A stretch of 64,000 bases of DNA from an uncultured Clostridia bacterium. GTDB lineage: Bacteria > Bacillota > Clostridia > Lachnospirales > CAG-274. The notes beneath the pieces were generated by a model. The model was not told the origin of the DNA. It did not search any database and worked only from the letters and a program-made list of their open reading frames with translations. Position numbers and translations under genes: made by a program. Where the stretch lies: the NCBI GenBank assembly GCA_947630475.1, contig CANRHR010000006.1, forward strand, positions 62,001 to 126,000, read 5' to 3'. Shown piece by piece: positions 7,978 through 35,297 of the stretch (the first letter of the stretch is position 1; each line of letters opens with the position of its first letter).

Positions 7978-7987
7978 CAACTAATAT

Positions 7988-8166
7988 CGAAAAAGTCCCT
8001 ACGGGACTTTTTCGAGAAAAAACAGATGTATAAACAGCTCATTCCATCGGAATTAAAAATCCCTTGAAACTCGCTGTTTTCCTCGGCGGAAGTGAATTCC
8101 GCCTGCGGATTATAAGTTTGTGACGCTTTAAGTTACTTATTCAAAGCAGGGCTTTTAACAGTCTGA
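7988..8166 (+). repeat. Family B structured MITE-like element, copy B1
   Basis: This fills the gap between the convergent LUD and amidohydrolase genes. It starts with a bidirectional terminator-like hairpin (7988-8014; AAAAAGTCCC/GGGACTTTTT). Next come the hairpin AAACAGC/GCTGTTT enclosing GGAATT/AATCCC, then GGCGGAA/TTCCGCC, a conserved tail containing GACGCTTTAAGTTACTT, and the end ACAGTCTG. It is almost identical to the copy at 35.1 kb. It is followed at once by another hairpin (AAATTTCC/GGAAATTT plus TATTT, 8166-8190) that looks like the original terminator of this gene pair. Confidence 0.75.
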
Positions 8167-8193
8167 AATTTCCCCAAACGGAGGAAATTTTAT

Positions 8194-24720: not shown

Positions 24721-25857
24721 ATGATTATACACGTTGTTGAAAAAGGTCAGACAATTTATTCGATAGCAAAGCAGTATGATCAAAATCCCGAAACCATTAT
24801 AAGAGAAAATGAAATAACAGACCCGGAAAAACTTGTTGTTGGGCAGACAATAGTAATAGAAGAGCCTAATGAAACAAAACTTCGCTCCGTAACCATAAAT
24901 GGATATGTTTATCCCAATGTATCGGAAAGTACTCTCAATAAAACCTTGCCAAATCTTTCTATGATAACAATATTTACCTATGGCTTTACAGACGAGGGTG
25001 AGCTTATAGGAATATATGACGAAAACGTTATAAACAAAGCAAAACAATACAGCGTTGCTCCCATTATGCTGATCTCTACCCTAAGCTCGGAGGGAGTTTT
25101 CAGCAACGAGCTTGCTCACACTCTTCTAAACAATCCCGATCTTCAGGATGTTCTTATAGATAATATACTTCAAACCCTTTCGGAAAAAGGTTATTTTGGC
25201 CTTGATATCGATTTTGAATTTGTCCCTCAGCAGGATAAAGAGCTTTATTCAGATTTTATAGCCAAAATAACACAAAGGCTAAATGCCTCTGATTATCCTG
25301 TTATAGTTGCCCTTGCGCCAAAAACCTATGCCGAACAGCCCGGTCTTTTGTATGAAGCCCATGATTATGCCGCCATCGGCGAAGCCGCAAACGCCGTTTT
25401 GATTATGACGTACGAATGGGGCTACACTTACGGGCCTCCAATGCCTGTAGCGCCTATAAATAAGGTAAGAGAAGTTTTGGATTATGCCGTATCCGAAATA
25501 GAATCAAGCAAAATTTTTATGGGTATACCAAACTACGGTTACGACTGGACTCTTCCGTATATAAGAGGAGAGAGCGCCGCAAAATCTCTTTCGCCCACCG
25601 AGGCGGTAAAGCTTGCCTCCGATTACGGAGCCGAAATAAAGTATGATCAGCTATGGCAAAGCCCCTATTTTAATTATTATGATGAATACGGAAACGAGCA
25701 TATTGTTTATTTTGAAGATGCCAGAAGCATATTTGCAAAGCTTTCACTTATAAATGAATATTCTTTAGCAGGAGCAAGCTATTGGAACTTGATGAAATTT
25801 TTCCCGCAAAATTGGCTTGTTTTAAATTCAATGTATGATGTATATAAAATTTATTGA
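24721..25857 (+). CDS. LysM-GH18 spore cortex-type hydrolase (SleL/YaaH-like)
   Basis: A 378-residue protein with one N-terminal LysM domain (residues 2-46, VEKGQTIYSIAKQY...LVVGQTIVIEE) and a GH18 domain (about 55-370). The catalytic motif DxxDxDxE appears as LDIDFEF near residue 160, with the Glu as acid/base. YEWGYTYGPPMPVAPI and the C-terminal GASYWNLMKFFPQNW complete the TIM barrel of the YaaH/SleL subfamily. These are N-acetylglucosaminidases acting on cortex muramic-lactam peptidoglycan during germination. There is no signal peptide, as is usual for proteins deposited from the mother cell. Bacillus members have two LysM domains; this one has one. Confidence 0.88.
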   Translation: MIIHVVEKGQTIYSIAKQYDQNPETIIRENEITDPEKLVVGQTIVIEEPNETKLRSVTINGYVYPNVSESTLNKTLPNLSMITIFTYGFTDEGELIGIYDENVINKAKQYSVAPIMLISTLSSEGVFSNELAHTLLNNPDLQDVLIDNILQTLSEKGYFGLDIDFEFVPQQDKELYSDFIAKITQRLNASDYPVIVALAPKTYAEQPGLLYEAHDYAAIGEAANAVLIMTYEWGYTYGPPMPVAPINKVREVLDYAVSEIESSKIFMGIPNYGYDWTLPYIRGESAAKSLSPTEAVKLASDYGAEIKYDQLWQSPYFNYYDEYGNEHIVYFEDARSIFAKLSLINEYSLAGASYWNLMKFFPQNWLVLNSMYDVYKIY

Positions 25858-25867
25858 CACTTAAAAG

Positions 25868-25890
25868 GTCCGCGCCTTTAAGGCGTGGAC
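25868..25890 (+). terminator. Terminator hairpin after the GH18 gene, separated from its T-run
   Basis: GTCCGCGCC and GGCGTGGAC form a 9-bp stem with one G-U pair around TTTAA. AAAA precedes the stem, but no T-run follows, because family B copy B2 begins two bases later. This fits insertion of the element directly behind the stem. Confidence 0.6.
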
Positions 25891-25891
25891 A

Positions 25892-26043
25892 CAGGCTGTC
25901 AAAAAAACCTGCTTTGAACAAGTAACTTAAAGCGTCGCAGACTTATAATCCACAGGCGGAATTTACTTCCGCCGAGGAAAACAGCGAATTTCAAGGGATT
26001 TTTAATCCTGATGGAACGAACTGTTTATACATCTGTTTTCGAC
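25892..26043 (-). repeat. Family B structured MITE-like element, copy B2
   Basis: Read on the minus strand: GTCGAAAACAGATG, hairpin AAACAG/CTGTTT around GGATT/AATCC, hairpin GGCGGAA/TTCCGCC, GACGCTTTAAGTTACTTG, and end TTGACAGCCTG. It lacks the 5' AAAAAGTCC hairpin of other copies. It lies upstream of the amino acid ABC transporter operon and directly behind the terminator hairpin of the GH18 gene. Confidence 0.75.
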
Positions 26044-26154
26044 AATTACTCTTCCATGAGTTTTATTATTTTTAATCTTTATTTTTTATGTAAATTGTGT
26101 TAAACTATATAAGATAATTAATATTGAATAAATGTTGAATGGAGGAATATTTTA

Positions 26155-28693: not shown

Positions 28694-28718
28694 TCGAAAA
28701 AGCCCGTTAGGGCTTTTT
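28694..28718 (+). terminator. Terminator of the amino acid ABC operon
   Basis: AAAAAGCCC-GTTA-GGGCTTTTT stem-loop right after the ATPase stop. A near-copy of the same sequence (one base different) recurs at 28908-28926 on the far side of element B3, an apparent duplication of the insertion site. Confidence 0.88.
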
Positions 28719-28906
28719 GACTGTCGAAAAAGTCCATTCGGACTTTTTCGAAGTTAAACAGATGAACAAAAGGCTCATTCCAGCGGCTTTAAAAGCCTTG
28801 AAACTCGCCTTTTCCCTCGGCGAAAATGCGATTTCCGCCTGCGGATTTGATGTATAGCTCCTAAAAACTTATAAGCTCAACAAAATTTAGGTTTATTGAC
28901 AGTCTG
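28719..28906 (+). mobile_element. Family B structured MITE-like element, copy B3
   Basis: This copy is bounded by GACTGTC (28719) and GACAGTC (ending near 28905) as inverted ends. It contains the CGAAAAAGTCC/GGACTTTTTCG hairpin, a long hairpin AAAAGGC/GCCTTTT around GGCTT/AAGCC, and an imperfect GGCG/CGCC hairpin. The arms differ from B1, B2 and B5 but still pair. Both flanks carry the host terminator sequence AAAGCCCGTTAG-GCTTTTT. It lies between the convergent ABC operon and sigK. Confidence 0.75.
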
Positions 28907-28956
28907 AAAGCCCGTTAGAGCTTTTTCGACACTCAAACACAGATTAGCAATACCTT

Positions 28957-29713: not shown

Positions 29714-29862
29714 GTGTCGAAAAAAACATTCATTCTTTTTCGGCATCAGCCAAAAGTATAAAAGGTGAGTTCCATCGGGCTAAAAGCCCTTAAAACTCAC
29801 CTTTTTTCGCCTAAGATTAATTTTGTCCGCCAACGCTAAACACTTATAACCCACAGGCCTTT
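29714..29862 (+). repeat. Family B structured MITE-like element, copy B4 (diverged)
   Basis: This copy starts with GTGTCGAAAAA and a weak hairpin. It then has the longest version of the central stem: AAAAGGTGAGTT (29760-29771) pairs perfectly with AACTCACCTTTT (29794-29805) around GGGCT/AGCCC. The tail (CACTTATAACCCACAGGC) is truncated, with no GACAGTCTG end. It occupies most of the 232-base gap between sigK and fprA. Confidence 0.65.
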
Positions 29863-35018: not shown

Positions 35019-35087
35019 TTTTCCTAAATTTATATTGCATTATTTCAAAAAAATTATTCAAATAAAAAAAACCGTTAAAAACGGTTT

Positions 35088-35274
35088 CAGACTGTCAATA
35101 AATCCTATTTTGCTTAAGTAACTTAAAGCGTCGCAGACTTATAATCCGCAGGCGGAATTCACTTCCGCCGAGGAAAACAGCGAGTTTCAAGGGATTTTTA
35201 ATCCCGATGGAATGAGCTGTTTATACATCTGTTTTCTCTCGAAAAAGTCCCGCAGGGACTTTTTCGACACTCAA
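35088..35274 (-). mobile_element. Family B structured MITE-like element, copy B5, inserted in a terminator
   Basis: This is nearly identical to B1 when read on the minus strand. From 5' to 3' it has: GTGTCGAAAAAGTCCC hairpin, AAACAGC/GCTGTTT stem around GGGATT/AATCCC, GGCGGAA/TTCCGCC, GACGCTTTAAGTTACTT, TTGACAGTCTG. It is flanked by an 11-bp direct repeat, AAAAACGGTTT (35077-35087 and 35275-35285). The flanks joined without the element would form a normal terminator hairpin (AAACCGTT/AACGGTTT plus T-run on the minus strand) for the upstream small ORF/trmB unit. Confidence 0.8.
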
Positions 35275-35297
35275 AAAAACGGTTTTTTTGTAACATT

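Follow-up and report, generated by a model that had tools for sequence, protein, structure and literature searches.

A MITE family with IS1182-type ends and duplicated flanking stem-loops in a Clostridia genome

The window, a 64,000-nucleotide stretch of DNA (contig C6, positions 62001-126000), comes from a 2.18 Mb Clostridia draft genome in 48 contigs (G000, below its own genome). It contains several copies of a repeated element of about 190 bp, which lie among hairpins, B3 after an ABC operon and B2 near a GH18 gene (Table 1). As a sequence-only reading of the window had proposed, B3 sits in a duplicated terminator, an 18-bp palindrome whose two copies differ by one mismatch. The stems which that reading had placed beside other long copies are also present: B1 touches a hairpin flush, B2 is one base off and B4 has one whole and one half hairpin, so that four of the long copies in the window adjoin a stem.

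Table 1. Copies of the element and adjoining hairpins in the window
Feature	Position	Strand	Remark
MITE copy B1, left end degraded	7980..8165	+	
Hairpin AAATTTCCCCAAACGGAGGAAATTT	8166..8190	.	Flush with B1; second copy gone
Hairpin GTCCGCGCCTTTAAGGCGTGGAC beside B2	25868..25890	.	One base from B2
MITE copy B2, left-end subterminal hairpin missing	25892..26045	-	
Left palindrome copy AAAGCCCGTTAGGGCTTT (terminator stem-loop) beside B3	28699..28716	.	Flush with element edge
MITE copy B3, full length (TTGACTGTCGAAAAAG ... TTTATTGACAGTCTG)	28717..28906	+	190 bp; divergent subfamily within the family
B3 subterminal hairpin CGAAAAAGTCC-attc-GGACTTTTTCG	28725..28752	+	Terminator-like; matches subterminal hairpin of IS1182-family ends
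Right palindrome copy AAAGCCCGTTAGAGCTTT beside B3	28907..28924	.	One mismatch; flush with element edge
TTCGACACTC	28925..28934	-	With 28695-28716, probable remnant of an older family member's left end
Partial MITE copy, HMM positions 1-121	29715..29835	+	
Intact hairpin AAACCGTTAAAAACGGTTT	35069..35087	.	Flush with B4
MITE copy B4, full length	35088..35274	-	
Half hairpin at the other side of B4, AAAAACGGTTT only	35275-35285	.	3' part of the B4 palindrome

The same reading took the target of B3 to be the terminator of the ABC operon. The hairpin is there, but it looks less like a private terminator than like one end of an earlier copy of the family: read on the minus strand, TCGA-AAAGCCCGTTAGGGCTTT-TTCGACACTC is identical to the family's own left end, GAGTGTCGAAAAAG... 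This identity suggests that B3 most likely landed in an older copy, inside its subterminal hairpin, and that only the end of this copy is left.

The stop codon of the GH18 gene lies within TTTATTGACACTT (window 25850-25867), a sequence similar to a family element's right end. By this resemblance, what remains of such an element may form the end of the gene.

Palindromes flanking the element

We sampled stretches totalling 1.256 Mb (57% of the genome) and the flanks of seven further copies, about 1.28 Mb altogether. This sample holds 87 non-overlapping family matches including fragments, 45 of them full length, and at least 40 scored copies were found among 148 candidates in the element's own genome. 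The element is short (~190 bp), non-coding and multicopy, and its boundaries are constant. Its terminal inverted repeats are conserved; since the left terminus (TTGAGTGTC) differs from the right one (CAGACTGTC), they are imperfect. With its target duplication, described below, the element thereby resembles bacterial MITEs in general, which are short and non-coding, have terminal repeats, many copies and target duplications, and need an IS in trans (PMC10969869). Plasmid and phage collections gave no DNA match to the MITE.

A strong palindrome lies no more than 1 nt from the element edge in 31 of the 45 full-length copies compared to 1.4% of 3183 random intergenic positions, which makes flush palindromes about 49 times commoner at elements. 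With a lower palindrome threshold, the figures are 36 of 45 copies and 3.3%. Strong hairpins are found on both sides of 16 copies, on the left only of 11 and on the right only of 4. Copies that keep a single strong hairpin fit the decay of a redundant second one. The other 14 of 45 copies have a strong hairpin on neither side; some of these show decayed or A/T-rich palindromes and a few show no visible palindrome.

The flanks themselves are repeated. Flank repeats scoring at least 8 occur in 27 of the 45 full-length copies, where they measure 11-33 bp, compared to 0.3% of 1980 mismatched left/right pairs. For the 24 copies with clear repeats we reconstructed the target site, and here the repeat is 18-31 bp long (mean 24.5). 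Its centre coincides with the axis of the palindrome in 18 of 24 sites and falls within half a base of it in 22. What is repeated is thus the entire stem-loop, not a short target duplication beside a hairpin: with the element read as TTGAGTGTC...GACAGTCTG, the palindrome adjoins it directly on either side, as in AGCCTGCCGTTAAAAACGGCAGGCT, AGGCGAGCTTACAATAAGCTCGCCT and AACAGGATAGGTTTATCCTGTT.

Accordingly, where a copy is flanked by two strong hairpins (16 copies), the centre of the hairpin is equidistant from the two edges (r 0.93). The mean difference in edge-to-centre distance is 0.28 bp compared to 1.47 bp in permuted pairs (0 of 20000 permutations, p value < 5e-5). The span of the palindrome correlates weakly with repeat length over the 24 target sites (Spearman 0.40, p value 0.05), in part because A/T runs leave the span ill-defined. 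The palindromes have many different sequences with nothing evident in common except symmetry, and in 20 of the 24 sites the palindrome is followed by a T-rich stretch or preceded by an A-rich one, as in terminators.

The enrichment over random intergenic sites and the duplication lengths, the two checks put forward with the sequence-only reading, both bear out its suggestion of a mobile, non-coding element with terminators as targets and with target duplication, except that the duplicated unit is the whole stem-loop.

In the copy at G000:C5:21370, the two hairpin copies differ in the loop (CCTTTTAGG and CCTAAAGG) as if one had been inverted; a cruciform intermediate or hairpin flipping could be the source.

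Ends and empty sites in the IS1182 family

We identified IS1182-family transposases (P0001 and P0002) in related genomes of the same taxonomic family, with NF033551 scores of 417 and 400 bits (cut-off 270) and matches to PF13751 and PF05598. The IS ends in these relatives consist of CAGACTGTCAAAAAAG followed by a hairpin, and of CAGTCTGTCAATAAACC. At locus L102, the ends of the IS match those of the MITE in place, with 13 of 13 bases of GGTTTATTGACAG at one end and 13 of 14 bases of TGTCGAAAAAGTCC at the other, while at locus L104 one end is shared in place (14/14). The match of the two MITE ends to two distinct IS ends includes the hairpin just inside. Several other IS1182-family elements in relatives (L105, L128, L130 and L143) have a terminator-like hairpin immediately inside one terminal repeat or both. 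Such hairpins could protect the transposase gene against transcription from outside and also offer targets for nested insertion.

Locus L102 also contains a 25-bp perfect palindrome, ACCGCCGCATTATAAATGCGGCGGT, in three copies around the IS and an adjoining MITE of a related family, in the order hairpin-IS-hairpin-MITE-hairpin. Two rounds of insertion into a single hairpin, with one copy added each time, gave this arrangement. Sister species lack both the IS and the MITE at this locus; one of them has a single but different terminator hairpin there, which is supportive only. MITEs in other relatives (L091, L095 and L099) are likewise surrounded by whole-hairpin repeats.

Whole-hairpin direct repeats are also found around ISEfa7-type elements on enterococcal plasmids and around an IS1182-family element in Rhizobium, and for these we looked at empty sites. 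The flanks of one enterococcal IS (L182), joined with one hairpin, match AP026606.1 and NZ_AP026602.1 over 208 of 208 bases; a letter-for-letter check found one hairpin in AP026606.1 and two in the filled plasmid. The joined site of another (L180) is matched by at least 10 plasmids at 99.6% over 232 bases (232/232 positions). Two enterococcal IS1182-family elements have thus inserted with duplication of the whole stem-loop. A Sinorhizobium plasmid matches the Rhizobium site through the joint at 78.5%, and an ISCfr1 element (L183) has a 10-bp repeat only. A scan for sister species by way of a neighbouring protein yielded relatives at no more than 63% protein identity, too distant for MITE empty sites, and by the anatomy it has in common with the two IS elements the MITE would have duplicated its stem-loops in the same way.

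In its own genome, we found no IS1182-family, DDE_Tnp_1_6 or DDE_Tnp_1 protein (PF13751, NF033551, PF01609 and tblastn searches were all empty), and pairing of element ends gave no longer, gene-bearing version. Dozens of MITE copies are therefore present in G000 yet no DDE_Tnp_1-type transposase was found, and this 48-contig draft offers no cognate transposase for a derivative of the IS1182 family. A cognate transposase in the same genome is usual for MITEs, not defining, as a MITE may outlive its source. A multi-copy IS could also be missing from a draft in 48 contigs. These MITEs may accordingly be orphans, or the draft assembly may have lost the IS.

Insertion at stem-loops

Taken together, the results very probably describe a ~190-bp MITE that is a non-autonomous IS1182-family derivative, inserted at palindromes by a transposase acting in trans with duplication of the whole stem-loop. 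Such a MITE would retain both parental ends and no gene, and an IS1182-family DDE transposase would insert it at palindromes, mostly intrinsic terminators. Each element end would be joined to one 5' foot of the stem-loop, the two feet being on opposite strands, and gap repair would then copy the palindrome lying between the joined feet, leaving a whole stem-loop on each side. As the hairpin is left whole on each side, insertion need not destroy the terminator. A new MITE family with a stem-loop-duplicating mode of IS1182-family transposition is well supported.

Palindromes could be found at the edges without being targeted, if insertion occurs anywhere between genes, terminators merely tolerate it, and the repeats are ordinary target duplications of fixed length in which a stem is included by chance. 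We consider this very improbable. Convergent gene pairs, between which insertion harms least, do surround 19 of the 39 copies with neighbours called, but tolerance does not account for the 49-fold excess of flush palindromes, and fixed-length duplication predicts neither repeats ranging from 18 to 31 bp nor their centring on the axis, which contradicts it. Transposition could even be dispensed with: the paired hairpins would then be terminators in their own right or would stem from local tandem duplication, and recombination would have spread the 190 bp as a regulatory or structural cassette. In its favour, the core of the element is structured and conserved in distant relatives and one-copy hairpins do occur. 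Nonetheless it is exceedingly improbable: dozens of different hairpin sequences are each doubled around one common element, the IS of relatives are similarly arranged, and the exact single-hairpin empty sites in sister plasmids refute it for the IS. There is also a slight chance that a transposase outside the IS1182 family mobilises the MITE and that its likeness to IS1182 ends is convergence. The lack of an IS1182 transposase in its own genome agrees with this, but that genome has no DDE_Tnp_1 match either, both MITE ends match two distinct IS ends, by position as well as by the subterminal hairpin, and one palindrome at L102 is occupied by both a MITE and an IS1182-family IS. We therefore infer that an IS1182-class transposase moved the MITE in trans.

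A further question, compatible with this explanation, concerns how the palindrome is recognised. The sequence evidence gives about an even chance that the DDE transposase reads an extruded hairpin or cruciform instead of symmetric double-stranded DNA and joins at its 5' feet, so that the hairpin would set the length of the duplication (18-31 bp) and a working terminator would remain on both sides. A symmetric transposase dimer could instead read the palindrome as double-stranded DNA and cut on either side of the dyad at a nearly constant distance of ~12 bp. The axis-centring is exact and the correlation between repeat length and palindrome span is weak, which a dimer measuring from the dyad also fits. 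This dimer is nevertheless rather unlikely, as the repeat length varies over 13 bp, the edges lie at the stem foot or no more than a few A/T pairs away, the targets have no common motif beyond symmetry, and IS1272, too, has been described as structure-directed (PMC4923244, PMC5678879). If the cruciform reading is true, such MITEs would be natural recorders of palindromes extruding in living cells.

Known systems and the element core

The sequence-only reading had held a non-coding element targeting terminators to be new, and had likened it to group IIC introns. IS1272 and TnSha1 of the IS1182 family in staphylococci are already described to target inverted repeats and terminators with no sequence consensus (PMC4923244, PMC5678879), which makes the phenomenon less new than supposed; the unusual part is the duplication of the whole hairpin. 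The MITE is like IS1272 and TnSha1 in its IS1182-family link and in its palindrome and terminator targets without consensus. Those elements delete or replace the stem-loop at the target and leave no target duplication (PMC4923244, PMC5678879), whereas the MITE has its whole stem-loop duplicated and not replaced. The comparison is clear in that transposase family and target are common and the outcome is opposite. In the model of PMC5678879, joining at the 5' feet would duplicate the whole stem-loop, but only as a theoretical 'pathway b'. As cited by PMC4923244, Siguier et al. 2015 describe palindrome targeting by some IS1182 members, and that work or ISfinder may already record whole-hairpin duplications.

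The closest likeness is to ISEfa7 and other IS1182-family elements (Enterococcus, Rhizobium sp. WYJ-E13 and clostridial relatives), which also have ends that begin with CAGACTG/CAGTCTG, subterminal hairpins and whole-hairpin repeats. These elements have a transposase gene and are ~1.5 kb long, whereas the MITE in the window is gene-less, 190 bp long and present in high copy. The IS1182 family is listed with long direct repeats of variable length. Typical MITE target duplications are short and fixed in length, in contrast to the 18-31 bp palindromes seen here, and annotation pipelines that seek short fixed duplications will miss such elements. Whole-hairpin duplication would explain how an element at high copy number can persist in terminators at no read-through cost, and why some genomes have doubled terminators.

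Group IIC introns, which are retroelements with catalytic RNA, are also inserted next to intrinsic terminators. The MITE is like them in its position only: its DNA-transposon ends match IS1182-family elements and it is flanked by target duplications, which sets the intron analogy aside. A group II intron was also rejected by the lack of an Rfam match. Indeed, no Rfam family matched the element at the gathering threshold, with chance-level matches only at the locus, and consensus folding gave compensatory change in 2 pairs only, so we make no claim of a functional RNA.

The MITE has a core of ~50-90 bp (consensus CCTCGGCGGAAGTGAATTCCGCCTGCGGATTATAAGTCTGCGACGC; L092, L094, L095 and window copies) that is 84-94% identical in other genera. 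This core is more conserved than the element ends; it is even present in a second family of the order (G040), and the elements that contain it differ in their ends.
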